Shown: piece by piece, positions 8,007 to 23,986 of the stretch | Layout: every line of letters begins with the position of its first letter | Position numbering within the stretch: position 1 is the first letter of the stretch | Assembly: GCA_020692355.1 (NCBI GenBank) | Contig: JAIMKP010000010.1 | Location: forward strand, 1-64,000 | Length of the DNA: 64,000 bases | DNA from: Desulfosporosinus sp. | Lineage (GTDB): Bacteria; Bacillota; Desulfitobacteriia; Desulfitobacteriales; Desulfitobacteriaceae | Direction: 5' to 3' | The notes under the pieces: model-generated | Database searches by the model: none | Seen by the model: only the letters and a program-made list of their open reading frames with translations | What the model was told of the DNA's origin: nothing | Translations under genes and position numbers: made by a program

Positions 8007-9149
8007 ATGAATATAGTCATTGCCCCAGATTCTTTCAAAGGGTGCTTGAGCGCCATTGAAGTGGCAAAGGCCTTAGCTCGAGGCGTACAGCGCGTGTTTC
8101 CAGAGGCCGGGATTGCCCTGATCCCCATGGCTGACGGGGGAGAGGGTACAGTGGATGCGGTCTTGGCGGCTGCCGGAGGCAAAAAAGTGAGCGTGAGGGT
8201 CACTGATCCTCTAGGGCGGTCCCGCCAGGCTGATTACGGGTTGTTGGACGGGGGACAAACCGCCATTTTGGAAATGGCAGCGGCTTCGGGTTTGCCGCTA
8301 CTTACAGACACTGAGCGTAATCCACTTACGGCTTCAACACATGGCACCGGGGAATTAATCAAGGATGCACTGGCTAAGGGAGTGAAGAAAATCCTGATCG
8401 GGATCGGTGGCAGTGCCACTAACGATGGAGGGGCCGGGATGGCGGAGGCTTTGGGAGTTCGCTTTCTTGATGCAAAGGGTCACTCTCTCCGGCCGGGAGG
8501 AGCCGACCTTGAGCGTTTGGCCAGGATTGATCCGTCTGGGCTGGACCCGCGTCTTCAGGATGTAGAGATCGAGGTAGCTTGTGACGTGCAAAACCCGTTG
8601 TGTGGTCCGCAAGGGGCAAGCGCGGTTTATGGCCCTCAAAAAGGGGCGACTCCTGAAATGGTTGAGCGCTTGGATAGAGCCCTCTTGAACTATGGACTGC
8701 AGCTGAGTGAACTGGCTGGACAAGATATCATTAATCTGCCTGGGGCCGGGGCTGCCGGCGGCTTAGGGGGCGGTCTGGTCGGGTTCCTAAGCGCCAAGCT
8801 GCGCTCAGGGACGGAGATCATTCTCGAGGCGGCCCGCGCCTCGGAGACAATTCCGCAGGCTGATCTTGTGCTTACCGGAGAGGGAAAGACGGATTTTCAG
8901 ACCGCTTATGGTAAGGTGCCGGTCGGCGTGGCGCGTTTGGCTAAGGCGGCTGGGGTGCCGGTCGTGGTGCTTTCCGGAGCGGTCGAGGGCGATCCGGATA
9001 TGCTTAAAGATTATGGGATTACGGCCTGTTTCAGTGTGGCTGAAGGCCCCATTACCTTAGCCGAGGCTCTGGAGCAAGCCCGAGAGCAGTTGGAGCGGGC
9101 AGCCTGGAGGCTACTTCTTATCTGGAAGGCAGTACAGGGCAGAGCCTAG
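8007..9149 (+). CDS. Glycerate kinase (GarK/GlxK family)
   Basis: The 380-residue product starts MNIVIAPDSFKGCLSA and contains MADGGEGTVDA, GIGGSATNDGGAGMAEALG and LTGEGKTDFQT, all diagnostic of PF02595 glycerate kinases. These phosphorylate D-glycerate, normally to 2-phosphoglycerate. ATG at 8007 has GGGGGGCGGAA before it; an open frame from 7953 overlaps guaB and is not conserved in character. Glycerate can arise from glyoxylate, which the malyl-CoA lyase at 41 kb could produce, but the intermediate enzymes are not in this window. Family membership is firm. Confidence 0.93.
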   Translation: MNIVIAPDSFKGCLSAIEVAKALARGVQRVFPEAGIALIPMADGGEGTVDAVLAAAGGKKVSVRVTDPLGRSRQADYGLLDGGQTAILEMAAASGLPLLTDTERNPLTASTHGTGELIKDALAKGVKKILIGIGGSATNDGGAGMAEALGVRFLDAKGHSLRPGGADLERLARIDPSGLDPRLQDVEIEVACDVQNPLCGPQGASAVYGPQKGATPEMVERLDRALLNYGLQLSELAGQDIINLPGAGAAGGLGGGLVGFLSAKLRSGTEIILEAARASETIPQADLVLTGEGKTDFQTAYGKVPVGVARLAKAAGVPVVVLSGAVEGDPDMLKDYGITACFSVAEGPITLAEALEQAREQLERAAWRLLLIWKAVQGRA

Positions 9150-9252
9150 TGAACTTATTAAAAAAAATATGAGCAATCCCCCCAATAGCCGGAAGGAAAT
9201 TTATGGTAGATGCCGAATTGGTATCTAAAGTCCGGTGACGGGGGGGTTTTTT

Positions 9253-9831
9253 ATGGAAGAATCGCGTCGCGAAAGAAAGAAAAGGGAAACGCAAGAAAAG
9301 ATTTATGCATCAGCGATGCAGTTGTTTCGCCAGCGGGGATTGGCAGGAACATCCATTGAGCAGATTACCCAACATGCAGATGTAGGCAAAGGGACGTTTT
9401 ATAATTATTTCTCTTCAAAAGAAGCGGTTGTTCTGGAGTTTTCACGGCGGGCCTACCGGGATATTTTAGCGCAAGGCCGGGAGAAAAGGAGTTTGGGGAT
9501 TCGACACCGTCTAGAAGAACTGCTTGAGGATTGGGCGGAATTTATGATCGCAGAACGGGAAATGGCTTGGGTTGCGGTGCGCAGCCGTGAGGGAGCTGAA
9601 TCTGATTTAGGCCTTCACTATGCGATTCAGGGAATCTTAACCTTAGGCCAGAGGGAAGGGCAGATTCGAGCGGATTTTGACCCGGTTTTCCTGGCGGAAA
9701 CCTTGGAAGGGATGATGATCCAGCATTTTATCAGCTGGTTTGTGCAAAGCCGCGGGGATTTGAAGGAGGAACTTCGCCGTGTCTTGAAAGTGTTCTTGGA
9801 TGGGCTCAGCGAGGAAAAACACCGCGCCTAG
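9253..9831 (+). CDS. TetR/AcrR-family transcriptional regulator
   Basis: A 192-residue regulator with a classic N-terminal TetR helix-turn-helix: LFRQRGLAGTSIEQITQHAD followed by KGTFYNYFSSKEAVV. The C-terminal ligand domain is typical in length and gives no clue to its ligand. ATG at 9253 follows a GGGGGG run; a GTG at 9235 would add six residues. It is a single gene with no obvious target beside it. Its downstream hairpin is where the composite transposon inserted, so whatever originally lay downstream (now uppP at 22.3 kb) has been moved 12.4 kb away. Confidence 0.9.
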   Translation: MEESRRERKKRETQEKIYASAMQLFRQRGLAGTSIEQITQHADVGKGTFYNYFSSKEAVVLEFSRRAYRDILAQGREKRSLGIRHRLEELLEDWAEFMIAEREMAWVAVRSREGAESDLGLHYAIQGILTLGQREGQIRADFDPVFLAETLEGMMIQHFISWFVQSRGDLKEELRRVLKVFLDGLSEEKHRA

Positions 9832-9849
9832 CGGTTTGGGGCAACCCGG

Positions 9850-9873
9850 AGGCCTGCCCGGTTTGGCAGGCCT
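9850..9873 (+). terminator. Hairpin after the TetR gene, invaded by the transposon
   Basis: AGGCCTGCC pairs with GGCAGGCCT, nine base pairs with a six-base loop. It has no T-run, so termination strength is unclear. The 3' arm overlaps the 9-bp target duplication of the composite transposon, so insertion was at the foot of this hairpin. Confidence 0.6.
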
Positions 9874-9877
9874 GACG
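9869..9877. repeat. Left 9-bp target-site duplication, GGCCTGACG
   Basis: This 9-mer abuts the left terminal repeat CAGAGGTGAAG at 9878 and is repeated exactly at 22265-22273, immediately outside the far right end. Confidence 0.85.
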
Positions 9878-10407
9878 CAGAGGTGAAGTACTAAACTAAA
9901 GCAGGCGTATGGTAAGGCTCTTAGAGAACCTCAAAAAAATTATTTCGCAAAACAGCTGTGAACAACCACAAACGGAGATGTTATGCTAGTATTGGAAAGG
10001 TGAATGACGCATTATCTGATGAAAATTGGAAGGTTCCTGAATGTGATGGCTTTAAACAGTGAACTGCTGGTTGAAAAGGTAAAAGAGCTTGGTCTACGAG
10101 GTTTTATTGTCTACTTGAAAACCACATGTAGAGGTAATTTGCTGGATAAGAAGAAGCTTACGAAAGCAGCTAATAAGGAAATCCGATGGAGATTGGTGGC
10201 ATAAAGACCATAAGGCTCAAACTAAAAAAGCATGAATAGGCTTTTTTGGCATGTCTGGAAGTCTTGTTATGGTCCACATATCGCTCTGGGAAAGGCATTC
10301 ACATGAAGCAAGTGAGGAGAACCGAGCGATTTACATACTGTCTTGAATCACAAAATGAATTGGAGGACCCTAGTTTCCTTAAAAACAATTTTGATGCTTC
10401 ACCTCTG
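9878..10407 (+). mobile_element. Short (530-bp) DruA-less copy of the element
   Basis: The left arm (9878-10012) and right arm (10036 onward) match the longer copy at 20683-22264 almost base for base, but a 23-bp filler replaces the roughly 1.1 kb holding the druA-like gene and most of ORF2. The ends are CAGAGGTGAAG and CTTCACCTCTG. It keeps the small ORF3 and carries about 45 bp near its right end that the long copy lacks. This is the structure of a non-autonomous derivative. Confidence 0.8.
10046..10204 (+). CDS. Element ORF3, 52-residue basic protein (short copy)
   Basis: The product starts MALNSELLVEKVKELG and ends NKEIRWRLVA. It is identical to the ORF3 of the long copy at 21947-22105. 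The frame can be extended upstream to ATG 10004, but that extension crosses the filler and is not shared. The conserved length and amphipathic basic character suggest a real peptide, although conservation here could equally reflect a needed DNA end. Function unknown. Confidence 0.4.
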   Translation: MALNSELLVEKVKELGLRGFIVYLKTTCRGNLLDKKKLTKAANKEIRWRLVA

Positions 10408-10424
10408 CTCCTACTAAAAATCTA

Positions 10425-10453
10425 TTGCATTTCTTAAATGTCAGTAATATAAT
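10425..10453 (+). promoter_or_regulatory. Sigma-A-type promoter of the transporter operon
   Basis: TTGCAT (10425-10430), a 17-base spacer, then a perfect TATAAT (10448-10453). It lies 18 bp inside the element's right end, so it travels with the cargo. Downstream, CATA-TGACG-TATG (about 10469-10481) is a small inverted repeat that could be an operator. Confidence 0.7.
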
Positions 10454-10488
10454 GACAGAAAAATAAGCATATGACGTATGAAGCAATG

Positions 10489-10529
10489 AGGCTTCCAGTG
10501 AGATTAGTATCATCACTTGGAAGCCTTTT
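10489..10529 (+). terminator. Leader hairpin, possible attenuator
   Basis: AGGCTTCCAGTGA pairs with TCACTTGGAAGCCT (one bulged base) and is followed by TTTTG. It lies between the promoter and the first permease gene, about 100 bases before the start codon, so it could act as a transcription attenuator. I saw no purine, guanidine or other riboswitch core that I know around it. Confidence 0.55.
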
Positions 10530-10633
10530 GTTATCCGATATCGAAGGGGGTGGATCGATAGCAATGGTGCTCGATTTTGAGAACCAAGGTACGATGTCAC
10601 ACATATTTGAATTTCTTAAGGAGTGTATATTAT

Positions 10634-11737
10634 TTGAACACACAATATAGAAATATTATTAAACAAATCACGATCTTATTGGCTGCTCTTGTAGGGGCCT
10701 TACTCGTGGGTGGAATTTTCTTGGTTCTGGCCAAATCGGATCCAGTTAAAGCCTATACCGTTATGTTGACAGGTCCTATCAATGATAAATTCGGGATTAC
10801 AGAAACTCTTGTGCGGTCAGTTCCCTTACTGTTGGTTGGATTGGGTATTATTATTTCCTTCCGTAGCGGAATTATTAATATCGGGGCCGAAGGTCAAATG
10901 TTGGCTGGGGCCATTGGGGCTGCTGCTGTAGCCACATCTTTCTCAGAGTTACCCTCAATGATTCTTATGCCCTTAGTTTTTCTCGCAGGGATGGCAAGCG
11001 GTGCATTTTGGGGAGGAATTGCGGGTTGGCTAAAAACCCGTCTCTCAGTAAACGAGATTCTGAGTACAGTAATGCTCAACCAGATTGCTTTGCAGTTATA
11101 TTTATTTCTTATTCGCGGTCCACTCATTGACCCAAAAGAAGTTTCTTACGGCACGGGTGCACCGCAAACGGCTTTAATCCCTGAAGGAATCTGGCTTGAT
11201 CGACTTATCCCCGGAACTCGACTTCATTCGGGGTTGATACTGGCTTTGGTGCTCGCGATATTGACTTATCTATTTTTATGGCGAACCAGCACCGGATACC
11301 GTTTGCGGGCGGTGGGGGAAGGCCCTGAAGCTGCACGGTATGCAGGGATTAAGGTTGAAAGGTACGTAATTCTAGCGATGGTTATGGCTGGGGGAATGGC
11401 TGGCCTTGCTGGCACAGTTGAGGTAACAGGTGTTCACCACCGCGCCTTGGAGGGTATCTCTGCGGGGTACGGATTTAGTGGTATTGTTGCCGCGCTGTTC
11501 GGACGTCTTCACCCCTTAGGTACAATCCCGGCCTCCATACTGTTCGGGGCGCTCCTTCTAGGGGCGGATATGATGCAAAGAGCAGTCGATGTTCCTGCAG
11601 CTATGGTTATGGCAATCCAGGGACTTGTGGTCCTGTTTGTGGTAGCAAGCGATTATTTCTTAATGAAACCCGTCAACGGGGCGCGTTTAAAGGAGAAGTG
11701 GTTGGGTAAGAAAATAGTAACGGAAGGCGGCGAGTAA
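10634..11737 (+). CDS. BMP-type ABC transporter permease, system 1, subunit A
   Basis: A 367-residue polytopic membrane protein of the BPD_transp_2 family, with SFRSGIINIGAEGQMLAGA, the hallmark of nucleoside/BMP-type permeases (YufP-like). TTG at 10634 is chosen because AAGGAG lies ten bases before it and the first membrane segment (QITILLAALVGALLVGGIF) follows soon after. The upstream open frame from 10577 is leader. It is the first gene of a P-P-S-A operon: two permeases, binding protein, ATPase. It pairs with the next permease, three bases away. Confidence 0.9.
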   Translation: MNTQYRNIIKQITILLAALVGALLVGGIFLVLAKSDPVKAYTVMLTGPINDKFGITETLVRSVPLLLVGLGIIISFRSGIINIGAEGQMLAGAIGAAAVATSFSELPSMILMPLVFLAGMASGAFWGGIAGWLKTRLSVNEILSTVMLNQIALQLYLFLIRGPLIDPKEVSYGTGAPQTALIPEGIWLDRLIPGTRLHSGLILALVLAILTYLFLWRTSTGYRLRAVGEGPEAARYAGIKVERYVILAMVMAGGMAGLAGTVEVTGVHHRALEGISAGYGFSGIVAALFGRLHPLGTIPASILFGALLLGADMMQRAVDVPAAMVMAIQGLVVLFVVASDYFLMKPVNGARLKEKWLGKKIVTEGGE

Positions 11738-11739
11738 GC

Positions 11740-12672
11740 ATGGAAGGCATTAACTCTGAGATTATCATCGTAATACTCGCTACTGGAATTCGCTTAGCTG
11801 CTCCCTTCCTGCTGGCAGCCCTAGGAGAAATGTTCACCCAACGTTCGGGTGTCTACAACCTCGGGGTAGAAGGGATTATGATGATGGGTGCCTTTGTTGG
11901 TTTTTTCATTACTTTGATAGGGGGGAGTCCTCTCCTCGGAATTGCTGCAAGTTTGGTGGTAGGGGCGTTGATGGGTCTGCTAATGGCCGTTGTCAGTGTT
12001 ACCTTTAAGGCCGAACAAGGAATTAGCGGTATCGGGCTTTACATGTTGGGATGGGGGCTTTCTGGTTTGCTTTTTCGTCTGTATGTCGGAGCAATCACAA
12101 CCATAGATGGGTTAAAACCTGTAGCGATTCCCTTGTTAAGTGACATACCTTTCTTGGGACCTATTTTATTCAACCAGAACGGATTAGTTTATTCGGCTTT
12201 CCTGCTTGTTCCCATTTCTGCCTTTATTCTTTATAAAACCACTTGGGGTCTAAATGTAAGGGCGGTAGGGACAATGCCGGAGGCGGCAGATACCTTGGGG
12301 GTAAGTGTTCAAGGGATACGGTATCAGTGTCTAATTGTTGGTAGTATGTTAGCCGGTCTTGCCGGGGCTTTCCTAACGGTGGGTCACGCTAATATGTATG
12401 CGGACAATATCACAGCGGGTAGAGGCTTTATTTCTATTGCCCTTGTGTATTTTGGACGCTGGAGCCCTTGGGGCATTATGCTGGGGGCACTCTTATTTAG
12501 TATGGCAGATTCCTTTCAAAGTATGGTACAAGTCCTTGGGATTAACTTCCCCTATGAATTGGCGGTTGTCTTACCGTATGTGATTACCATTTTCGCTCTA
12601 GCAATTTCCTTTGGCCGCGTCTGGGGTCCGGCAGCCCTTGGGAAGCCTTTTCAGCGTGGAACTAGAGGTTGA
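11740..12672 (+). CDS. BMP-type ABC transporter permease, system 1, subunit B
   Basis: The 310-residue hydrophobic protein has FLLAALGEMFTQRSGVYNLGVEGIMMMGAF, typical of YufQ-type permeases that partner YufP-type ones. About eight or nine membrane segments are visible. It starts two bases after the upstream stop, so translation is probably coupled. The substrate is inferred as a nucleoside or related base because characterised members of this permease pair with BMP binding proteins import guanosine and other nucleosides. Confidence 0.9.
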   Translation: MEGINSEIIIVILATGIRLAAPFLLAALGEMFTQRSGVYNLGVEGIMMMGAFVGFFITLIGGSPLLGIAASLVVGALMGLLMAVVSVTFKAEQGISGIGLYMLGWGLSGLLFRLYVGAITTIDGLKPVAIPLLSDIPFLGPILFNQNGLVYSAFLLVPISAFILYKTTWGLNVRAVGTMPEAADTLGVSVQGIRYQCLIVGSMLAGLAGAFLTVGHANMYADNITAGRGFISIALVYFGRWSPWGIMLGALLFSMADSFQSMVQVLGINFPYELAVVLPYVITIFALAISFGRVWGPAALGKPFQRGTRG

Positions 12673-12702
12673 TTATAAATATTTAAGAGGAGGAAATTTA
12701 TA

Positions 12703-13731
12703 ATGAAAAGAGTTCTTACAGTGTTCCTAACAATTGTCATGTTATTTGCGATTGCTGGCTGTAGTAACAGTGGCACAACAGCAAACACCCCTCAGAAGCC
12801 AGCTGAATCCCCTAAAGCGGAAAAGATCCGTATTGCCTTGGTGCTTCCAGCTACTGTGGATGACATGGCTTGGGGTCAGTCTATGGTCGAAGGTTTGAAG
12901 GCAGTTCAAAAGAGTATGGGAGAAGACAAAGTTGAGCTTGCTACCAGCGAAAAACTGGGTAATGCGGTGGACGCTGGGGCGGCGATACGTCAGTACGCAA
13001 CCCAAGGTTATGATATTATCTTGGCGCATGGTTCCCAATACCAAAGTGTATTAGGGGAAATTGCCAAAGACTTCCCGAAAACAACGTTTGCCTATGGGAC
13101 AGGCTTTACGACCGGACCCAATATCTTCGCTTATGATCCACAAGCCCAGGAAGGCGGCTATCTGTTAGGGATGCTGGCTGGAAAGATGAGCAAATCAGGT
13201 ATTGTGGGGATTGTGGGACCTGTGGAATCAGGGGATGCCGTAAAGTATAACTATGGTGTTCAACAAGGGGTTGCCAAAGCTAAATCTGATGTACAAACAC
13301 GCATTGCTTATACCGGTTCGTTCAATGACATTGTCGGGGCAGGTAATTTAGCGAAAACACATATCAGTGCTGGGGCAGATTTTCTGACAGGCTCTTCACA
13401 GCAGGCGGTTGGAGCATTAAGGGCAGTTGCTGAAACCGAAGGCAAGTATTGGCTCTCTACGGATATGGATCAAAGCAGCCTTGCACCCAATCATGTTTTA
13501 GCCTCCCAAGTCTACAACTGGGAAAAAGTCGCAACCAAAATTATTGAATTACGGAAACAAGGAACCCTTGGTGGTCAACGACTTAGCTTAAATCTTGCAG
13601 ATGGAACGATTCAGTTTAAATACAACGAAAAGCTGGCGGATAAGGTTCCTGCGGAGGTTAAAGCAGCTATCGAGCAAGCCAAACAGGACATCGTTAGCGG
13701 CAAAGTTAAAGTAGAATTACCTAAAAAATAA
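12703..13731 (+). CDS. BMP-family substrate-binding lipoprotein, system 1
   Basis: A 342-residue lipoprotein: the signal ends in LFAIAGC, with Cys20 as the lipidation site, then a Thr/Pro/Lys linker. The mature part begins IRIALVLPATVDDMAWGQSM, the usual BMP start where an aromatic and Asp contact the nucleoside. TGSSQQAVGALRAV and WLSTDMDQSS are also family-like. It should sit on the outer face of the membrane and deliver ligand to the two upstream permeases. AGGAGG lies nine bases before the ATG. It clearly differs from the second BMP protein at 15.35 kb, so the two systems probably differ in ligand. Confidence 0.9.
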   Translation: MKRVLTVFLTIVMLFAIAGCSNSGTTANTPQKPAESPKAEKIRIALVLPATVDDMAWGQSMVEGLKAVQKSMGEDKVELATSEKLGNAVDAGAAIRQYATQGYDIILAHGSQYQSVLGEIAKDFPKTTFAYGTGFTTGPNIFAYDPQAQEGGYLLGMLAGKMSKSGIVGIVGPVESGDAVKYNYGVQQGVAKAKSDVQTRIAYTGSFNDIVGAGNLAKTHISAGADFLTGSSQQAVGALRAVAETEGKYWLSTDMDQSSLAPNHVLASQVYNWEKVATKIIELRKQGTLGGQRLSLNLADGTIQFKYNEKLADKVPAEVKAAIEQAKQDIVSGKVKVELPKK

Positions 13732-13756
13732 CAAGAAGTAAAACGGGTGATGTAAG

Positions 13757-15277
13757 ATGGCCGAAAATATGCAGCACCTGGAGATGCTTGGGATTACTAA
13801 GAGGTTTCCTGGTGTACTTAGTAACAATAATATAAATATCCAATTAGGAACTGGAGAGGTATTAGCTATCCTGGGTGAGAACGGAGCCGGGAAAACGACG
13901 CTCATGAATATTCTTTACGGCCTTTATCAGCCTGATGCAGGGGAGATCTTGCTCAAGGGTAAATCGGTGAAGATAAATTCTCCCCGCGAGGCGATTGCGT
14001 TAGGGGTTGGAATGGTGCATCAGCATTTCATGCTGGTGCCCAACCTCACCGTCACTGAGAATGTTATTTTGGGGTTATCTAGGAAAATTTTGGTGGATCT
14101 AAAAACTGCAGCCATAAGAATCAAGGAAATTTCTGATTCCTATGGGCTAGCCATTAATCCTGATGCCTATATCTGGCAGCTTAGTGTGGGGGAACAACAG
14201 CGTGTTGAGATTATTAAAGCACTCTATCGCGGTGCCAACCTGTTGATTCTTGACGAGCCAACCGCGGTACTTACTCCGCAGGAATCTAAAGAATTAATCC
14301 TGCTCCTTAAAAATATGGCCGCTCAGGGCAATTCGATTATCGTGATCAGCCATAAATTAAACGAAGTTATGGCTGTCAGTGATCGGGTTACGGTGCTCCG
14401 GGATGGTGAGGTGTGTGCAGACGTTAAAACTCGGGAAACTTCTTCGGAAGCCTTGGCTCGGCTTATGGTAGGTCGAGAAATGACTCGACATAAAAGGGAA
14501 GGTAAGTCTTCTCCGGGAAAACCCGTTCTGGAACTTCAGGAAGTGTTTGCCAAGGGGGATAAGGGAACCGAAGCTTTATCCGGAATTACACTCGAAATCA
14601 GAGAGGGAGAGATTTTGGGAATTGCTGGGGTTTCAGGAAATGGGCAAAAGGAATTGGCCGAAGTGATCAGCGGGCTTAGAAAAGTAACGAAAGGCAAGTT
14701 ATGTTTAAACGGGAAGGAAAGTACGAATCATCCCCCGATAGATCTAATTAAGATGGGTCTCGGTTATATCCCCGAGGATAGGATGCATGTCGGAACGATT
14801 CCGTCCTTTAGTATTTGGGAAAACTTTATTCTCAAAGATCATCATAAGTCTCCCTTTGCCAAGGGAACATTTCTACAAAACCGATGGATTCGATCTCACA
14901 GCTCCTCTTTAGTGGAAAAGTACGGAATCAAAACTCCGAATCTAGAAACTCCAACGGGTAGGCTCTCGGGTGGAAATATTCAGAAAATCGTATTAGCCAG
15001 AGAAATAAATCGTAATCCTAAGACACTTGTGGCGGCATATCCGACGAGAGGACTGGACATCGGAGCAACCGATTACATCCACAGTAAACTCCTGGAAGCT
15101 CGAAGTAACGGTATTGGGGTAATGCTTATTTCCGAAGATTTAGAGGAACTGATAAACATTTGTGACCGCATTGCAGTTCTTTACGATGGAAGGATTATGA
15201 AAGTCATGCCCGTTGAGGAAGCAGATGAAAGTACACTGGGTCTTTTAATGGCCGGTTTATCTGAGGCTGCATCCTGA
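13757..15277 (+). CDS. Double ABC ATPase, system 1
   Basis: The 506-residue protein has two ABC modules, as in RbsA and YufO. The first has an intact Walker A (GENGAGKTTL), signature LSVGEQQRVE and Walker B LLILDEPTAVL. The second has a degenerate P-loop (GVSGNGQKEL) but keeps LSGGNIQKIVLARE and AAYPTRGLD, normal for this class in which one site is weak. It powers the importer formed with the two permeases upstream. The gap to the binding-protein gene is 25 bp. Confidence 0.93.
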   Translation: MAENMQHLEMLGITKRFPGVLSNNNINIQLGTGEVLAILGENGAGKTTLMNILYGLYQPDAGEILLKGKSVKINSPREAIALGVGMVHQHFMLVPNLTVTENVILGLSRKILVDLKTAAIRIKEISDSYGLAINPDAYIWQLSVGEQQRVEIIKALYRGANLLILDEPTAVLTPQESKELILLLKNMAAQGNSIIVISHKLNEVMAVSDRVTVLRDGEVCADVKTRETSSEALARLMVGREMTRHKREGKSSPGKPVLELQEVFAKGDKGTEALSGITLEIREGEILGIAGVSGNGQKELAEVISGLRKVTKGKLCLNGKESTNHPPIDLIKMGLGYIPEDRMHVGTIPSFSIWENFILKDHHKSPFAKGTFLQNRWIRSHSSSLVEKYGIKTPNLETPTGRLSGGNIQKIVLAREINRNPKTLVAAYPTRGLDIGATDYIHSKLLEARSNGIGVMLISEDLEELINICDRIAVLYDGRIMKVMPVEEADESTLGLLMAGLSEAAS

Positions 15278-15349
15278 AAAATCAAAATTGCTTAAAAACC
15301 TACATTGGATTATGGAAAATAGTTTGAGAAAGAAAGGGGTAACTATAAA

Positions 15350-16480
15350 ATGAGCTGGAAACGCAGAAGTGCATTTTTTGCCGTTATGCTTGTATCGCTT
15401 ATGTTAATTCTCGCAGGCTGTGGGGGGAGTAAGACTGCAAGTGCACCGAAGTCCCCTGCAGATTCCCCAGCCTCAGAGGAAAAAATTAAAGTCGCCTTTG
15501 TTTATGTTGGGCCTGTAGGAGATGCCGGTTGGACCACATCCCATGACAACGGACGGAAATACCTCGTTGAAAAAATGCCTAATGTAGAAACGACTATTGT
15601 TGAAAATGTACCTGAGGGAGCAGATGCGGAGAGGGTGATTACTCAGCTGGCCGAGAAGGGCAATAAGATAATATTCACAACGAGTTATGGTTACATGGAC
15701 CCAACCATAAATGTCGCAGCCAAATATCCTGAGGTCGTTTTTATGCATAATTCCGGCTTTAAAACGGCAAAAAATGTTGGAACATATTTTGGCCGTATAT
15801 ATCAAGCGCGTTATCTAAGCGGTATTGTGGCAGGAAAAACAACCAAAAGCAATACTATTGGTTATGTTGCAGCACATCCCATTCCTGAGGTCATCCGAGG
15901 GATCAACGCTTTTACTTTAGGGGTTCAATCCGTGAATCCTAATGCCAAAGTGAAAGTCATTTGGACGAATACCTGGTATGACCCAGCGGCTGAAAAAGAA
16001 GCCGGAAATACACTACTCGCTGCGGGTGCGGATGTCCTTGCCCAGCATCAAGATACACCTGGACCTATGCAAGCAGCAGAACAACAGGGCAAATTCGGTA
16101 TTGGCTATAACACCGATATGTCCAAAATGGCTCCAAAGGCAGTACTCACCTCTGCAATTTGGAATTGGGGTCCTTACTACGTGAAGACCGTAGAGGCGGT
16201 TAAGAACAAGACCTGGACGAATGAACAGTACTGGGGTGGCCTGAGCGATGGAATAGTTGATCTAGCTCCTTTTGGCCCGATGGTGGATGAGGGGACAAAG
16301 TCCCTTGTAGCAGAGGCTAAACAAAAAATCTTAAGTAAGAAATGGGATGTCTTTACTGGCCCGATTAAAGATCAAACGGGTGCAGTAAAAGTCGCTGAGG
16401 GTCAAAAGATGACGGATGCAGAAATGCTTAGTTTTAACTGGTTTGTAGCGGGAGTGGATGGCACAATTCCTAAAAACTAA
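15350..16480 (+). CDS. BMP-family substrate-binding lipoprotein, system 2
   Basis: A 376-residue lipoprotein with signal end LILAGC (Cys24). The mature domain has VAFVYVGPVGDAGWTTSHD, a canonical BMP ligand motif, and the stretch NTWYDPAAEKEAGNTLLAAG followed by QHQDTPGPMQAAEQ, typical of the Med-like BMP subgroup. It begins the second operon, ordered S-A-P-P, the mirror image of system 1. AAAGGGG precedes the ATG. A hairpin just downstream may set the ratio of binding protein to membrane parts. Confidence 0.9.
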   Translation: MSWKRRSAFFAVMLVSLMLILAGCGGSKTASAPKSPADSPASEEKIKVAFVYVGPVGDAGWTTSHDNGRKYLVEKMPNVETTIVENVPEGADAERVITQLAEKGNKIIFTTSYGYMDPTINVAAKYPEVVFMHNSGFKTAKNVGTYFGRIYQARYLSGIVAGKTTKSNTIGYVAAHPIPEVIRGINAFTLGVQSVNPNAKVKVIWTNTWYDPAAEKEAGNTLLAAGADVLAQHQDTPGPMQAAEQQGKFGIGYNTDMSKMAPKAVLTSAIWNWGPYYVKTVEAVKNKTWTNEQYWGGLSDGIVDLAPFGPMVDEGTKSLVAEAKQKILSKKWDVFTGPIKDQTGAVKVAEGQKMTDAEMLSFNWFVAGVDGTIPKN

Positions 16481-16492
16481 AGATTCGCTGAA

Positions 16493-16526
16493 CAGGGAGC
16501 TGAATTAAAACCTGCTCAGCTCCCTG
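16493..16526 (+). terminator. Intercistronic hairpin after BMP gene 2
   Basis: CAGGGAGCTGA pairs with TCAGCTCCCTG, eleven base pairs. There is no T-run, so partial termination or 3'-end stabilisation of the binding-protein transcript is more likely than full termination. Such hairpins are common after binding-protein genes. Confidence 0.6.
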
Positions 16527-16562
16527 TGCTTATCATTTCGTCAATGTGAAGGGGAAAAAAGA

Positions 16563-18107
16563 ATGAAGGAACCACTGATTAGCTTACAAGGGATTGTCAA
16601 AAAGTTTCCAGGGGTTCTGGCCAATGATCACGTGAACATGGAACTTTACCCTGGTGAAATTCATGCCGTATTGGGGGAAAATGGATCCGGAAAAAGCACT
16701 TTAATGTCTATCCTTGCCGGTCTTTACCGTCCTGATCTCGGCAAGATTATGGTAAGTGGTGTTGAACAAAAATTCCGTTCACCTAGGGATGCCATTTTCT
16801 ATGGTATTGGGATGGTTCATCAGCACTTTAAATTGGTGGAACCCTTTAGTGTGGCGGAAAATATTACCCTTGGGGAAAAAGACTCCTTTTTGCTATCCAA
16901 AGAAAAACTTAAGACGAAAATCCATGAGCTAGGCGAAAAATATGGTTTAAAGATTAATCCAGATGCAAAGATTTGGCAGCTGTCGGTGGGGGAAAAGCAG
17001 CGGGTAGAAATTGTTCGCATGCTTTACCGTGGTTCTAAAGTTCTGGTGTTAGATGAACCCACTGCCGTACTTACCCCTCAGGAAGCCCAAGAGTTGTTTA
17101 ATAACTTGCGTCGCTTGGCTTCTGCCAATTGTGCCGTCGTTCTGATTACGCATAAATTGAATGAAGTTCAGGAGATAGCGGATCGTGTAACGGTCCTACG
17201 TCAGGGAAAAGTCGCCGGGGTATTGGAAAAAAACCAAATCACAGCGCAAGAGATGGTGCGTTTAATGGTTGGCCGAGAAGTGGCGTTAAATTATGAGCGA
17301 AAACCATCGTCTGCGGGCCGTGTTGTTTTGGATTTAGAGAAAGTGACGGCTCTCAATGATCTGGGCATTCCTTCTTTACGCGAGTGTTCTCTGCGTGTTC
17401 GTGAAGGGGAAATATTCGGTCTAGCGGGTGTTTCCGGTAATGGTCAGCGCGAATTGGCAGAGGTCATTGCGGGTTTAAGAAGGATTGAGAGTGGCAAAGT
17501 TAGCTTAGACTCTCAGGAAATTTCTCATCGATCTCCCCGCGAGATCATCGATCTCGGGGTAAGTTATGTTCCAGAAGATCGTTTGGGCATGGGGCTGGTA
17601 CCTCAGCTGAATACCATGGAAAATCTTATTTTGAAAAATTATCATCAGCCGGAGTATTCGGGACGTTGGTTATTGAAACCCAAGGTCATCCAAAAACATG
17701 CGGAGGTGCTGGTGGACCAGTATCAGGTTAAGCTGGCCAGTCTACATCAACCCGTAAAGAGTCTCTCCGGAGGAAATCTCCAAAAGCTTTTGTTAGCAAG
17801 GGAAATCTCTGGTGCTCCCAAACTGATGGTTGTGATTTATCCGGCACGGGGTCTCGATATTGGGGCGACTGAAGCAGTGCATAAACTTTTGCTAGAACTA
17901 AAGAGCCGTAAGACGGCGATTCTTTTGATCTCTGAGGATTTGGATGAAATTCTAAAATTGGCTGACCGAGTTGGGGTCATCTTTAATGGTCAACTGAATG
18001 GGGAATTTCCCATTGAGCAAACGAATTTGGAAGAAGTGGGCCTTTTAATGATGGGTTCCCGCTCAGTCGAAGAAAGGATCGATGACAATGAACCGGCTTG
18101 CCTTTAA
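16563..18107 (+). CDS. Double ABC ATPase, system 2
   Basis: The 514-residue protein has the same two-module layout as the ATPase at 13.8 kb: Walker A GENGSGKSTL, LSVGEKQRVE and LVLDEPTAVL in the first module; GVSGNGQREL, LSGGNLQKLLLARE and VIYPARGLD in the second. The two ATPases are clearly paralogous but far from identical, so this is not a recent duplication. Its 3' end overlaps the next permease gene by about 20 bases, indicating translational coupling. Confidence 0.93.
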   Translation: MKEPLISLQGIVKKFPGVLANDHVNMELYPGEIHAVLGENGSGKSTLMSILAGLYRPDLGKIMVSGVEQKFRSPRDAIFYGIGMVHQHFKLVEPFSVAENITLGEKDSFLLSKEKLKTKIHELGEKYGLKINPDAKIWQLSVGEKQRVEIVRMLYRGSKVLVLDEPTAVLTPQEAQELFNNLRRLASANCAVVLITHKLNEVQEIADRVTVLRQGKVAGVLEKNQITAQEMVRLMVGREVALNYERKPSSAGRVVLDLEKVTALNDLGIPSLRECSLRVREGEIFGLAGVSGNGQRELAEVIAGLRRIESGKVSLDSQEISHRSPREIIDLGVSYVPEDRLGMGLVPQLNTMENLILKNYHQPEYSGRWLLKPKVIQKHAEVLVDQYQVKLASLHQPVKSLSGGNLQKLLLAREISGAPKLMVVIYPARGLDIGATEAVHKLLLELKSRKTAILLISEDLDEILKLADRVGVIFNGQLNGEFPIEQTNLEEVGLLMMGSRSVEERIDDNEPACL

Positions 18108-19161
18108 ATTAGAGAAGCGTCTGAATCCATCGCCGGCAATGATTGCTATCGTACCTTTGATATCCGTACTACTGGCCTTGTTATTGGGGGCGATATTTTT
18201 ATCATTAACTGGACAAAATCCCCTTGCAGTTTATGCCACCATGTTTGGAGAAGCGCTCGGTTCAAAATATGGATTTACTGAGACGTTGGTCAAGGCGATC
18301 CCTCTGATGCTTTCTGCTTTAGGCATCTCTATAGCCTTCAAAATGCAATTGTGGAATATTGGTGCAGAAGGACAGCTTTACATGGGGGCACTTGCTGCAA
18401 CCTGGCTCCCTTTGACTTATCCTAACTTACCGGCCTATCTGATGTTACCGGGTATGGCAATGCTCGCAATGGCGGCAGGAGGAATTTGGGGTCTTATTGC
18501 GGCGATACCGAAAGCGATCTGGAAGGTTGACGAAATTATAACGACCCTGATGCTCAATTATGTAGCCATTCTTTGGGTGGACTACCTCGTTTACGGTCCC
18601 TGGAAGGATCCAAAGGGGTTTAACTTTCCTTTCACGGCCCAGTTTCCTGGGGCTGCAAGGTTGCCGGGATTGGGAGATTCCCGTGTGAATGCTGGTTTAG
18701 TCCTGGCAGTCCTTTTGGCGATTCTCCTAGCAGTGGTCTTTAAGTACTCGCGGTGGGGATATGAGCTTAAGGTCATTGGCGCAAGTGAACAGTCCGCTCG
18801 CTATGCGGGAATGCATATTAAGAAAAAGATTTTAGTGGTACTATTTTTAAGCGGAGCGATTTCGGGATTAGCTGGAATGACTGAAGTGAGTGGAATTGTT
18901 GGACGCTTACAGCATGGTATCAGTCCAGGATATGGGTATACCGCCATCATCGTGGCTTGGTTGAGTAAATTGAATCCCTTGGCGATCGTCTTAGTCTCTA
19001 TCTTGTTTGGAGCACTACAGGTGGGAGGTTATGCAGTCCAAGTTGTGGGTGTGCCCGCTGCCGTGGCCTCAATGCTCCAGGGGGCGATTCTATTCTTTGT
19101 ACTCGGCGGGGAAGTATTGACAAACTATCGGATACGACGAGCCCAGAGAGGAGAGAAATAA
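18088..19161 (+). CDS. BMP-type ABC transporter permease, system 2, subunit A
   Basis: A 357-residue membrane protein with IAFKMQLWNIGAEGQLYMGAL, matching the INIGAEGQ motif of the system 1 permease. ATG at 18088 is preferred to 18082 because AAAGGA at 18073-18078 is nine bases before the former and only three before the latter. It overlaps the ATPase gene. Its GFTETLVKAIPLMLSALGISIAF region parallels system 1 (FGITETLVRSVPLLLVGLG), supporting paralogy of the two importers. Confidence 0.9.
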   Translation: MNRLAFKLEKRLNPSPAMIAIVPLISVLLALLLGAIFLSLTGQNPLAVYATMFGEALGSKYGFTETLVKAIPLMLSALGISIAFKMQLWNIGAEGQLYMGALAATWLPLTYPNLPAYLMLPGMAMLAMAAGGIWGLIAAIPKAIWKVDEIITTLMLNYVAILWVDYLVYGPWKDPKGFNFPFTAQFPGAARLPGLGDSRVNAGLVLAVLLAILLAVVFKYSRWGYELKVIGASEQSARYAGMHIKKKILVVLFLSGAISGLAGMTEVSGIVGRLQHGISPGYGYTAIIVAWLSKLNPLAIVLVSILFGALQVGGYAVQVVGVPAAVASMLQGAILFFVLGGEVLTNYRIRRAQRGEK

Positions 19162-19165
19162 GAGC

Positions 19166-20098
19166 ATGAGTGGTCTGGAATTTTTGATCCCTTTACTGGC
19201 AGCTGCGATTACCGCGGGTACTCCAATACTCTTTGCAGCGCTGGGGGAATTGATTACGGAACGGGCCGGAATCACGAATTTGGGTGTGGAAGGAATCATG
19301 CTCGTGGGTGCGGTGGCCGGGTTTATGGCGGCGGTTGCGACAGGAAGCCCTTGGCTGGGTTTATTGGCCGCAATGCTTGCAGGAGGGGGCATGGCATTCA
19401 TACATGCAATTTTAACCATTACTTTAAGGGCAAATCAAGTGGTAAGCGGTTTATCCTTAGTTATTTTTGGAACGGGACTAAGTGGATATTTGGGCAAAAA
19501 CTATGTGGGAATCCCAGTACCACAGTCGTTCACTCCTGTCCCCCTTGGCCCCCTGGCAGATATTCCGTTTCTTGGGCCTATATTTTTTAAACATGATATC
19601 TTAGTATATCTCAGTTTTGTGTTAGTTATTATCTTATTCTTTTACTTGTATCGTACCCGACCGGGATTGAATTTGCGTGCTCTGGGTGAAAATCCTGCGG
19701 CAGTGGATGCCTTGGGTTTAAATGTTTTTGCTTTAAAGTATATTTATGTTGTGATCGGAGGCATGTTGAGCGGGATCGGAGGTGCCTACCTTTCCCTGGC
19801 CTATGCCCCAAGTTGGTTGGAAAATATGACTGCGGGTCGAGGTTGGATTGCAGTGGCTTTGGTTATCTTCGCCCTCTGGAATCCAGTTCGTGCCATGTTG
19901 GGTGCTTATCTCTTTGGCGGGATTGATTCCCTAGGTTTTCGTCTTCAAGTCGTTGGAGTGGGGATTTCTCCATTTATCCTCGATATGCTGCCTTATCTAT
20001 TTACCGTTTTAGTACTGGTTTTTGTGGTCGCACGTCATAAGGGACGGCTCACTGCTCCTGGAGCCCTAGGTTTGCCCTATGATCGAGAGGAGAGATAG
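19166..20098 (+). CDS. BMP-type ABC transporter permease, system 2, subunit B
   Basis: The 310-residue hydrophobic protein has ILFAALGELITERAGITNLGVEGIMLVGA, the YufQ-type signature, equal in length to its system 1 counterpart. It starts four bases after the previous stop. It completes the S-A-P-P second importer. The regulator gene starts 35 bp later on the same strand. Confidence 0.9.
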   Translation: MSGLEFLIPLLAAAITAGTPILFAALGELITERAGITNLGVEGIMLVGAVAGFMAAVATGSPWLGLLAAMLAGGGMAFIHAILTITLRANQVVSGLSLVIFGTGLSGYLGKNYVGIPVPQSFTPVPLGPLADIPFLGPIFFKHDILVYLSFVLVIILFFYLYRTRPGLNLRALGENPAAVDALGLNVFALKYIYVVIGGMLSGIGGAYLSLAYAPSWLENMTAGRGWIAVALVIFALWNPVRAMLGAYLFGGIDSLGFRLQVVGVGISPFILDMLPYLFTVLVLVFVVARHKGRLTAPGALGLPYDREER

Positions 20099-20133
20099 TT
20101 TTCCCCTTAATTCGGAGAAAGAGGGATTTGATT

Positions 20134-20670
20134 ATGCTTGGAGATAAAATTCGCAAAAAAAGAATGGAAAAGCAATTAACCTTAAGGGACTTGGCAGAAC
20201 GGACGGCAGTAACCCAGGGTTTTTTAAGTCAAGTCGAGCGAGGTCTTACAGATCCCTCGATTATGTCTTTACGACGAATTTCCCAAGCTCTTGATGTCCC
20301 CATGTTTTATTTCTTAATGGATGAAGCCCAAGCGAATCCTGTGGTGAGAAAAAATGAACGACAGATTTTGAAGTTTCCTGACTCCCATCTGATCTTTGAA
20401 TTGCTCTCACCGAATCTGAACCGGAGTATTGAAATGATGATGGCGCGCTTAGAACCCGGTGGGGTAACCTGTGAGGAACCGCTAACCCATGTGGGGGAGG
20501 AGAACATCGTCGTGATCCAAGGCACGATGAAAATTCAAATCGGTGAGGAAGTTTATTGCTTAGCCGAAGGGGATAGTATCTATTACTTTTCGAGTATACC
20601 TCATAAAATTTGGAGCATCGGAAAAGAGGACTTGGTCTTTATTTCTGCCATAACTCCCCCAGCCTTTTAA
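20134..20670 (+). CDS. XRE-cupin transcriptional regulator
   Basis: A 178-residue regulator with an N-terminal lambda-repressor-type helix-turn-helix (LRDLAERTAVTQGFLSQVER, about residues 17-37) and a C-terminal cupin sensor domain (about 105-175, HVGEENIVVIQG and LAEGDSIYYFSSIPHKI). ATG at 20134 has GAGGG eight bases upstream. Such proteins (PuuR-like) usually sense a small metabolite and control the adjacent uptake or catabolic operon; here the target is probably the two importers. It is the last cargo gene, ending 12 bp before the second element copy. Confidence 0.88.
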   Translation: MLGDKIRKKRMEKQLTLRDLAERTAVTQGFLSQVERGLTDPSIMSLRRISQALDVPMFYFLMDEAQANPVVRKNERQILKFPDSHLIFELLSPNLNRSIEMMMARLEPGGVTCEEPLTHVGEENIVVIQGTMKIQIGEEVYCLAEGDSIYYFSSIPHKIWSIGKEDLVFISAITPPAF

Positions 20671-20819
20671 ATGGGTAGAGATCAGAGGTGAAGCACTAAA
20701 CTAAAGCAGGCGTATGGTAAGGCTCTTAGAGAACCTCAAAAAAAATTATTTCGCAAAACAGCTGTGAACAACCACAAACGGAGATGTTATGCTAGTATTG
20801 GAAAGGTGAATGACGCATC

Positions 20820-21725
20820 TTGGACAATATTAGCAAAGTATTTGCGGGAAGGACATTCAGTCAAGAAGATATAGAGATAATTAAATGGGCAAGAAAAAGA
20901 TATCCCAAACTGTCAAGACGCGAGCTTGCGGGAACGGTTTGCGAGATTTTGAATTGGACCACCCCAGCTGGGCGAGCAAAAATTAAGCAATGTCTGGATT
21001 TCCTTGAGATATTGGAAGCGGATGGGATTGTACAACTACCGGCAATTCAAACGTTCATGCAGCGCAAGCAAAAGGTCTATATTCTTGAGATCAAGTTTAA
21101 AACCGAAGAAATAGATGGAGATATTCAGGAGTACGAACCTATACAATTAGTAAAGGCAACACCCGGCGAGGAACTGAAACGCTGGCGGTCCTATGTGAAC
21201 CAGTATCACATGCTGGGGGACAAGTGGGTATTTGGTTCACGCTTGCAGTATTTTGTAAAATCAGGGGACAAAGAACTGGGCTGCCTTCAGTTTTCAGCCT
21301 CTGCATGGTCTCTGGCGGACCGGGATCAATGGATTGGATGGACACAGGAAGACCGAAAGGTCCGTCTGCATTTGATTGTAAACAATAGCCGGTTTTTAAT
21401 CTTTCCAGGGGTTCACATACGAAATCTAGCCAGCAAAGCCCTTTCGCTTGCGGTAAAGCAAATTCAGCAGGATTGGCTCAGAGAGTATTGTTATGCTCCG
21501 GTATTATTGGAGACATTTGTGGATACGGAACATTTTAAAGGGACGTGCTATAAAGCGTCTAACTGGATATATCTTGGTGAGACAAAAGGCAGTGGACGTA
21601 GCGGAGTAAAAGAAGGACTTGTTTCCAGGAAAACGATTTTTATGTACCCCTTGCAGAAAAACTTCAAGGCCTGTTTAAGAGGAGAAGAACCTTATAAGGT
21701 GGTGGATCCCGATGAGCAGGTCTAG
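20820..21725 (+). CDS. DruA / DUF4338-domain protein of the insertion element
   Basis: The 301-residue protein is recognised by the central DUF4338 core: HLIVNNSRFLIFPGVHIRNL, LASKALSLAVKQIQQDW and LLETFVDTEHFKGTCYKASN, then WIYLGETKGSG. An N-terminal part (about 1-75) resembles a small helical DNA-binding region (KLSRRELAGTVCEILNW). The domain is best known from the Druantia phage-defence system, but here there is no DruE helicase, only element ends. The only usable start is TTG at 20820, ten bases after AAAGGTG; a stop lies in frame just upstream. Whether it is a mobility enzyme or an accessory is unknown. Confidence 0.85.
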   Translation: MDNISKVFAGRTFSQEDIEIIKWARKRYPKLSRRELAGTVCEILNWTTPAGRAKIKQCLDFLEILEADGIVQLPAIQTFMQRKQKVYILEIKFKTEEIDGDIQEYEPIQLVKATPGEELKRWRSYVNQYHMLGDKWVFGSRLQYFVKSGDKELGCLQFSASAWSLADRDQWIGWTQEDRKVRLHLIVNNSRFLIFPGVHIRNLASKALSLAVKQIQQDWLREYCYAPVLLETFVDTEHFKGTCYKASNWIYLGETKGSGRSGVKEGLVSRKTIFMYPLQKNFKACLRGEEPYKVVDPDEQV

Positions 21726-21963
21726 GGAAAAGCAAGAGAAGCAGCAGCACAAGAACCAGGAAGAAAAGATGCTGGAACGAATTCATTCTGCTAAAATGAC
21801 CCCGGTTGCCCATGAAGAAAGAAAAAAGAAACTGGCTTTACCGAACCGTTTAAATAGGGGAGAAAGTACAGAAGAAGAGCAAAAGGAACAACAGGATACG
21901 GTTGAAAAAGCGACCATGGTCTACCGCCAAATGCTGCCTGAATGTGATGGCTTTAAACAGTGA
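21712..21963 (+). CDS. Element ORF2, 83-residue charged protein
   Basis: Starts MSRSREKQEKQQHKNQEEK and is very rich in Lys, Glu, Gln and Arg, predicted largely helical or disordered. It overlaps the druA-like gene by 14 bases (ATG inside its 3' end) and ORF3 by 17 bases. The chain of overlaps suggests coupled translation. I recognise no family. Most of it is absent from the short copy of the element. Confidence 0.5.
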   Translation: MSRSREKQEKQQHKNQEEKMLERIHSAKMTPVAHEERKKKLALPNRLNRGESTEEEQKEQQDTVEKATMVYRQMLPECDGFKQ

Positions 21964-22105
21964 ACTGCTGGTTGAAAAGGTAAAAGAGCTTGGTCTACGA
22001 GGTTTTATTGTCTACTTGAAAACCACATGTAGAGGTAATTTGCTGGATAAGAAGAAGCTTACGAAAGCAGCTAATAAGGAAATCCGATGGAGATTGGTGG
22101 CATAA
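21947..22105 (+). CDS. Element ORF3, 52-residue basic protein (long copy)
   Basis: Identical in sequence to 10046-10204 in the short copy (MALNSELLVEKVKELG to IRWRLVA). It lies in the +1 frame relative to ORF2 and begins inside its end, so either an independent ATG start or a +1 frameshift from ORF2 could express it. It could be the remnant of a larger transposase, but I cannot align it to one. Confidence 0.4.
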   Translation: MALNSELLVEKVKELGLRGFIVYLKTTCRGNLLDKKKLTKAANKEIRWRLVA

Positions 22106-22264
22106 AGACCATAAGGCTCAAACTAAAAAAGCATGAATAGGCTTTTTTGGCATGTCTGGAAGTCTTGTCATGGTCCACATATTGGGAAAGGCATTCACAT
22201 GAAGCAAGTGAGGAGAACCGAGCGATTTACATACTGTCTTGAATCACATGATGTTTCACCTCTG

Positions 22265-22273
22265 GGCCTGACG
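22265..22273. repeat. Right 9-bp target-site duplication, GGCCTGACG
   Basis: Exact repeat of 9869-9877, directly adjoining the right end of the long element copy. The pair supports a single insertion event of the whole 12.4-kb unit. Confidence 0.85.
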
Positions 22274-22341
22274 CTACAGCTTTGCAGACCGACACCTTTG
22301 TGATATATTTATGTTATCTATGTAGCTTGGAGGTTGAAAGT

Positions 22342-23121
22342 GTGACTGTTTTTCAGGCATTGGTCTTAGGTGTTGTGCAGGGTTTGGGGGAATTCTTGCC
22401 GATTTCAAGTTCGGCACATCTTGTGCTCATTCCCTGGTTGTTCGGCTGGGCTGACCCCGGACTCACGTTCGATGTAGCCTTACATATGGGCACCCTGCTT
22501 GCCGTCGTGCTCTATTTCTGGCATGACTGGCTCAACCTTTTGCGGGGGGCTGTGAGAAGAGGTCCTTCGGATGAAAAACGTTTGTTTTGGTACTTAGTTC
22601 TAGCAACAATACCTGGAGGCCTCTTTGGTCTGGCCTTAGAGAGCAAGGCCGAAACGGCTTTCCGTGCACCGCTTTTGATCGGCATCATGCTCATCGTGAT
22701 GGGGGTTGTCCTCTATCTGGCAGATAGACAACGGCAGGCGCGCAACTTAGATACCGTGACTTTGGGGGATGCGGTTGGAATTGGTCTGGCCCAAGCTTTA
22801 GCGATCATTCCCGGGGTTTCGCGTTCGGGGATCACGATGGCTGCCGCCCGTTGGTTTAATCTAGGCCGGGAGGCCGCCGCGCGCTTTTCCTTTCTCATGT
22901 CAACGCCCATCATCTTAGGGGCGGGTGTGCTCAAGCTCAGGCACTTGAGTTTAGCGGATGTCAATTTGCCCTTTGTAACGGGAGTTGTGTCCTCCTTTTT
23001 GGTTGGAATCCTGAGCATCTCCTTTTTGCTGCGCTATTTACGACGGAGCAATTTCGGTGTTTTTGTCATTTATCGTTTCCTTTTTGGTGCGGTCGTGATT
23101 CTTGTTGCCTTAATGCGCTAA
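22342..23121 (+). CDS. uppP: Undecaprenyl-diphosphatase
   Basis: The 259-residue membrane protein has both UppP/BacA motifs: GEFLPISSSAHLVL near the N-terminus and IPGVSRSGITMAA in the middle. It dephosphorylates undecaprenyl pyrophosphate, recycling the lipid carrier for peptidoglycan and giving bacitracin tolerance. GTG at 22342 is chosen because GGAGGT lies seven bases before it and the first membrane helix starts at once; the open frame from 22282 partly adjoins transposon DNA. Before the transposon inserted, this gene lay close to the TetR gene now at 9.25 kb. Confidence 0.95.
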   Translation: MTVFQALVLGVVQGLGEFLPISSSAHLVLIPWLFGWADPGLTFDVALHMGTLLAVVLYFWHDWLNLLRGAVRRGPSDEKRLFWYLVLATIPGGLFGLALESKAETAFRAPLLIGIMLIVMGVVLYLADRQRQARNLDTVTLGDAVGIGLAQALAIIPGVSRSGITMAAARWFNLGREAAARFSFLMSTPIILGAGVLKLRHLSLADVNLPFVTGVVSSFLVGILSISFLLRYLRRSNFGVFVIYRFLFGAVVILVALMR

Positions 23122-23239
23122 AACCTCCTCCATAAGTCTCAGTCAGAAATATACAACTAATTCCCTTCGCTAGCAGGATTTTTATACTTTAGATCGAAGT
23201 GATAGATAGGAAGTGCCTTCAAGAAGGGGGGTATATGAT

Positions 23240-23986
23240 ATGGGAGAAAAGGCTTTTGACCAGAAGCTTGACAAACTTTACACATGGGTTGGGCAAAGCC
23301 TGAGTGCTTGCCCAATTCGAGATGGGGTCACGTTTTACCATCGCACCGAAAAGGTGTTTAAGGTGGTGAAACAAAAGGCAGGATGGCACCTGCAGTTTAA
23401 TGTTCCAGTTCCAGAGTGCTCTGGATTGGTAAAGCTTGCGCCCGAGGAAGCCCGGAAACGCAAGTTGGGTAAGACCCAGTGGATCTATAAAGGGGATTCA
23501 GATAGTGATGCACAACATCTCGTTCGAGCGGCTTTAGACAGTTTGCCCCAGCGCTGGGTGATTGAACCCGCCTTAAGCCGGGATATCGCGACCGTCTGCA
23601 GAGGAACGTGTCCTTGTTTTAGGAAGATGGAACGCTTGGCAAAGGCGACAGGTCTGCCCGAGGATTTGCGGGGCCTATTGGAAAATGCTTATTCCTTGTT
23701 ACTGAATGGCCAATACGTTGAGTTTGTGGAACGTATGCAGGTGGGGATTGCTGAAGCCGTCGGCTATCTGCTTCGGGAACAAGGAGAAGAACCCGACGGG
23801 GATGTCCAAACGAAAATACAGGCACTTGTTCGTTTACATGTTATTCCGCAAAGCATGGGGGCTGAAGGGGAAGTGCTCTTTACCCGCCGAGGGTACGAAA
23901 GCTATTACACGATGCAGGAGAGGGTATATCCTCTGGCCTTGATGTTTATATCCTTCTTGACGAAACTTCTGAAAGACAAAATATAA
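23240..23986 (+). CDS. Unknown 248-residue protein
   Basis: I do not recognise this family. The product is soluble with a mixed composition. Cys residues occur in SACPIRDG, VPECSG and as VCRGTCPCFRKM (a C-x3-C-x-C pattern near residue 125) that might bind metal. The C-terminal half is helical (RGLLENAYSLLLNGQYVEFV) and ends with a hydrophobic helix YPLALMFISFLTKLL. ATG at 23240 follows AAGGGGGG. It ends 53 bp before the peptidase gene. A conserved role in this lineage is possible but unproved. Confidence 0.75.
   Translation: MGEKAFDQKLDKLYTWVGQSLSACPIRDGVTFYHRTEKVFKVVKQKAGWHLQFNVPVPECSGLVKLAPEEARKRKLGKTQWIYKGDSDSDAQHLVRAALDSLPQRWVIEPALSRDIATVCRGTCPCFRKMERLAKATGLPEDLRGLLENAYSLLLNGQYVEFVERMQVGIAEAVGYLLREQGEEPDGDVQTKIQALVRLHVIPQSMGAEGEVLFTRRGYESYYTMQERVYPLALMFISFLTKLLKDKI

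Follow-up and report, generated by a model that had tools for sequence, protein, structure and literature searches.

We conclude, at a probability of roughly 0.83, that a 12,387-bp unit at positions 9878-22264 of the window (the 64,000-nucleotide stretch of Desulfosporosinus sp. DNA that we analyzed) is a non-autonomous composite transposon, bounded by MITE-like elements and resembling the TIME-COMP type in its working. According to the mechanism that we propose, two deletion derivatives of one insertion-sequence (IS) family would have come to flank an operon for two importers and its regulator in direct orientation. A transposase supplied in trans would then have taken the two outermost tips, the left one on the left copy and the right one on the right copy, as the ends of a single unit, which it would have inserted at GGCCTGACG between tetR and uppP. 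The locus would thus be a clean natural example, for which an empty site is known, of two defective element copies moving a metabolic module with two importers as a single transposon.

Unit boundaries, target duplication and the empty site

The outer ends of the unit are inverted, carry CAGAGGTGAAG-type tips, and are bracketed by a perfect 9-bp direct repeat, GGCCTGACG, at 9869-9877 and 22265-22273. The left 9-mer forms the 3′ foot of a terminator-like hairpin that follows tetR. GGCCTGACG has no further occurrence on either strand of the window, and the probability that nine bases at two fixed positions would be identical by chance is ~4e-6. The flanks of the inner ends are unlike each other, with CTCCTACTA following position 10407 and GGTAGAGAT preceding position 20683. 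The first-pass annotation had described inverted ends, identical bracketing 9-mers and differing inner flanks, and its coordinates, ends and 9-mers all proved exact.

All four tips of the two copies fit the consensus CAGAGGTGAAGCA with at most one mismatch. The outer left tip (CAGAGGTGAAGTA, 9878-9890, plus strand) and the outer right tip (CAGAGGTGAAACA on the minus strand, 22252-22264) are each one base off this consensus, whilst CAGAGGTGAAGCA is read at the inner right tip of the left copy (10395-10407, minus strand) and at the inner left tip of the right copy (20683-20695, plus strand). Two copies of an element surround unrelated cargo, and a duplication is found at the outer ends only, with the 9-bp length that characterizes the element itself in two loci of relatives (L041 and L141).

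The only same-genus relative compared, G001 (~83% complete), has an empty site. Its tetR adjoins uppP, the cargo is absent from the locus, and a single, diverged copy of the 9-mer, GGCTTGGCG, is present. The flanks are 95-97% identical to those of the window, with protein identities of 98% for TetR and 96% for UppP, and a search of the whole of this ~83% complete genome for the cargo returned trace matches at most. It had been predicted that removal of the unit and one 9-mer would restore a short tetR-uppP spacer. Such a removal would leave GGCAGGCCTGACG joined to CTACAGCTTTGCAGA, and the junction in G001 reads GGCAGGCTTGGCGCAATAGCTTTGCAGA. Counting G001, tetR directly precedes uppP without cargo in 11 loci of the family, which indicates that the cargo-free arrangement is ancestral.

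One might still suppose that the cargo resided ancestrally between tetR and uppP, was lost in relatives, and was flanked late by independent insertions at its edges, given that cargo homologues exist in the family. We consider this scarcely credible, since the empty site of G001 contradicts it, tetR and uppP are adjacent without cargo in all 11 loci, and independent insertions would each show a duplication of their own; they do not, and it is the outer flanks that match each other. The simplest reading is that the unit transposed by its outer ends. The earlier proposal that the whole unit moved as one and duplicated a 9-bp target is thus supported by both the empty site and the 9-bp habit of related elements.

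The unit is present as one copy in its own genome, and no second copy was found there or among ~100 relatives; nor did we find other composites of this element family among the relatives searched. Two candidates were considered and rejected. On contig G040:C73, two decayed druA/transposase remnants occupy one strand and are separated by ~8.5 kb (L109, 6600-7613 and 15500-16280), but they lack paired tips or a duplication. In G440, two copies lie 20 kb apart, but one of them, L141, has its own duplication.

The bounding copies and their parent insertion-sequence family

The bounding copies are both on the plus strand and share blocks of 136 bp and 317 bp that are ~98% alike. The claim that they are two direct copies of one element therefore holds as to orientation, but they are not equivalent. 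The left copy (9878-10407) is a 530-bp MITE-like deletion derivative comprising the left end, transposase codons for residues 443-506 and the right end, without druA. The right copy (20683-22264; 1582 bp) contains druA (20820-21725, plus strand), whose product matches PF14236 at 1.5e-42 and has weak Mom-family similarity, followed by a truncated transposase gene. Using the 509-aa L051 transposase as the reference, we mapped a 5′ remnant of the DDE transposase gene (21712-21963, plus strand; residues 1-76, with a stop after the deletion junction) and a 3′ remnant (21938-22105, plus strand; residues 453-506). Residues 77-442 are thus missing from both copies, the catalytic part is gone, and neither encodes a complete transposase. 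Residues 443-452 are found in the left copy only, and druA and residues 1-76 in the right copy only. Because each copy has stretches private to it, neither was derived from the other, and the sequences point to independent deletions of a common parent. Both ends of the unit are consequently non-autonomous derivatives of a parent family that is represented in L051, L141 and L047.

Beyond these remnants, no transposase match, and hence no intact transposase, was found in the unit's own genome assembly. Movement would have required a transposase of outside origin or one encoded by a copy that has since disappeared, and most likely used one acting in trans. In the absence of a related transposase the unit is now expected to be stable, whilst recombination between the direct copies can collapse it to a single element.

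Homologous recombination could also have built the locus stepwise. A lone element would first have inserted at GGCCTGACG, making the 9-bp duplication, and a circle or other donor carrying the cargo and a second copy would then have integrated by recombination with the resident copy, to give the same end product. The likeness of the direct copies over 136 bp and 317 bp is sufficient for such an exchange, and neither copy now has a transposase. However, two separate events would be needed, nothing in the data points to a circle or other donor molecule, and in none of the genomes searched did we find a single element at the tetR-uppP site. We regard this route, whether by a circle or by another donor, as improbable and less likely than transposition of the unit, which we infer took place with no homologous recombination step. 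An assembly artifact, in which cargo located elsewhere with its element copies was joined here through the repeat, is more improbable still. The assembly is a draft of 101 contigs and the 317-bp shared block exceeds a typical short read, but the copies are of unequal length and not identical in sequence, so that a false joint would have to fall within the shared blocks, and every match to the bounding elements in this genome is at this locus, with none at contig ends.

Among loci of relatives, collected by protein search and from whole genomes, a DDE transposase gene directly follows druA in 16. The loci without the pair are L150, which starts at a contig edge, and L052 and L054, which have druA only. 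This parent family has CAG-type inverted tips and a transposase with PF13808. L141 is an intact element of 2713 bp, with tips CAGTGCTGACGCAT and a 9-bp duplication, GTCCCCTGA; L041 (2013 bp) has a partly deleted transposase and a 9-bp duplication, CTGAGGAAT. As both have 9-bp duplications of their own, the 9-bp signature belongs to the element family, for which, judging from these sequences, 9 bp is likely to be the usual duplication length. The duplication of L143 appears to be 8 bp, and none is recognizable in L047, L051, L146 or L148.

The transposases of the relatives score 18-33 bits against the NCBIfam IS1380 model, the cut-off of which is 180; there was no hit to an ISAs1 model, and no NCBIfam IS family was reached. 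In Thiodictyon, a druA match lies within an ORF already annotated as “ISAs1 family transposase”. DruA itself is a passenger or partner gene, and not the transposase. The first-pass annotation's description of “DruA-type” bounding elements should not be read to mean that DruA moves them; their relatives are insertion sequences consisting of druA and a DDE transposase. A search for DruA gave no match in phages and two distant matches in plasmids.

An isolated left tip of the element family stands directly behind a terminator-like hairpin at seemingly equivalent positions in G014 and G029 (L039, position 3804; L040, position 7120), and a right tip was not found there. We considered whether the family targets terminator hairpins and did not adopt the idea; a hairpin abuts the window site and the L039 site, and the L141 site folds well, but most other sites have none.

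Relation to known systems

In a classical composite, such as Tn5 with IS50, at least one IS copy encodes an active transposase. The unit resembles such composites in that the outer ends of two IS copies mobilize the intervening block, and differs from them in that neither of its copies has an active transposase. Composites bounded by MITEs (TIME-COMP) are already known, and direct orientation of their ends is possible (PMC4133298); blaPER-1, for example, lies between 439-bp MITEs (PMC3934969). As in the unit, two copies that lack a transposase mobilize the intervening DNA and generate a target duplication, with transposase coming from elsewhere. Their ends, however, are Tn3-derived or are MITEs that duplicate 5 bp, and are near-identical in length, whereas those of the unit are unequal derivatives of a druA + DDE IS with 9-bp duplications, and its cargo is two importers. 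MITE-like composites therefore carry nutrient transport too, beyond the resistance-gene setting.

The parent family is similar to ISAs1/IS1380-related DDE insertion sequences in having PF13808 (DDE_Tnp_1_assoc) and weak DDE-model matches in its transposase, as well as CAG-type tips; it differs in falling far under the curated NCBIfam IS1380 cut-off and in having a druA gene upstream. The druA-linked lineage is apparently undescribed as far as our literature searches reach (ISfinder lay outside their scope); they returned no description of such insertion sequences, and DUF4338 is mentioned in three papers, with the passages from two of them not placing it in an IS. With Druantia, the elements have in common a PF14236 domain protein (DruA), but in them druA directly precedes a transposase gene, and the ORFs of the unit include neither druE nor druB-D. 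A druA gene in these genomes can thus be the partner of a transposase and not part of a defense system, which matters for the annotation of defense systems. A tentative and rather doubtful extension of this idea is that DruA has a functional role in an entire, uncatalogued lineage of DDE insertion sequences, e.g., as a Mom-like acetyltransferase acting on the DNA of the element or its target, and that Druantia either acquired its DruA from such elements or donated it to them.

The cargo and its surroundings

The unit does carry two whole ABC importers, as originally suggested; the number of cargo genes was put at ten, and we count nine ORFs between the copies. Each importer comprises a pair of permeases, a binding protein of the Bmp family and a double ATPase, and the ninth ORF is an HTH-cupin regulator; all are on the plus strand. 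Importer 1 consists of permease A (10634-11737; BPD_transp_2), permease B (11740-12672; 82-85% identical to its counterpart in relatives, permB1), a substrate-binding lipoprotein (12703-13731; Bmp/PnrA family, PF02608) and the double ATPase (13757-15277). In importer 2 the order is a substrate-binding lipoprotein of the Bmp/PnrA family (15350-16480), the double ATPase (16563-18107), permease A (18082-19161; BPD_transp_2) and permease B (19166-20098). The regulator (20134-20670; HTH_3 and Cupin_2) shares 83-84% identity with the regulators that accompany related importers in G036 and G039.

The cargo differs from its flanks in composition, as the comparison of GC and codon use suggested at the outset showed. 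Its GC content is 45.9%, whereas the flanks have 52.0% and 50.2%; its GC3 is 0.41-0.48, vs. 0.51-0.61, with every cargo gene below the flanking genes measured. In G019, of the neighboring genus g6, the eight importer genes occur in the same order with 73-84% protein identity, and the cargo may have arrived from a related genus. The four cargo blocks of relatives that were checked contain no match to the bounding elements. Importer 1 is grouped in G036 and G039 with an amidohydrolase, the same regulator and a more distant importer 2. The amidohydrolase in G036 is adenine deaminase, and in G019 a gene that by eye resembles queC directly precedes the related importer operon (L110, 2949-3650). These two neighbors are possible hints at the substrate of the importers; that it is of the purine type is a reasonable guess, no more.

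The cargo is preceded by a leader (10408-10633, plus strand) that contains a promoter-like sequence, TTGCAT-17-TATAAT, recognized by eye and not listed by a consensus promoter scanner. Between this sequence and the first permease lies a strong hairpin (~10482-10532; z = -6.3) with a T-rich tail, which is a candidate attenuator; similar hairpins precede the same operon in G019, G033, G036 and G039. As both the promoter-like sequence and the hairpin align with those of relatives, the unit apparently includes predicted signals for its own expression. There were no Rfam matches in 9000-23500.

Elsewhere in the window, a sequence of ~120 bp (1415-1535) contains two strong hairpins (z = -4.95). It has no Rfam match and is repeated, at 74-97% identity, in dozens of places across the genomes of the family, and is possibly a REP-like interspersed repeat.
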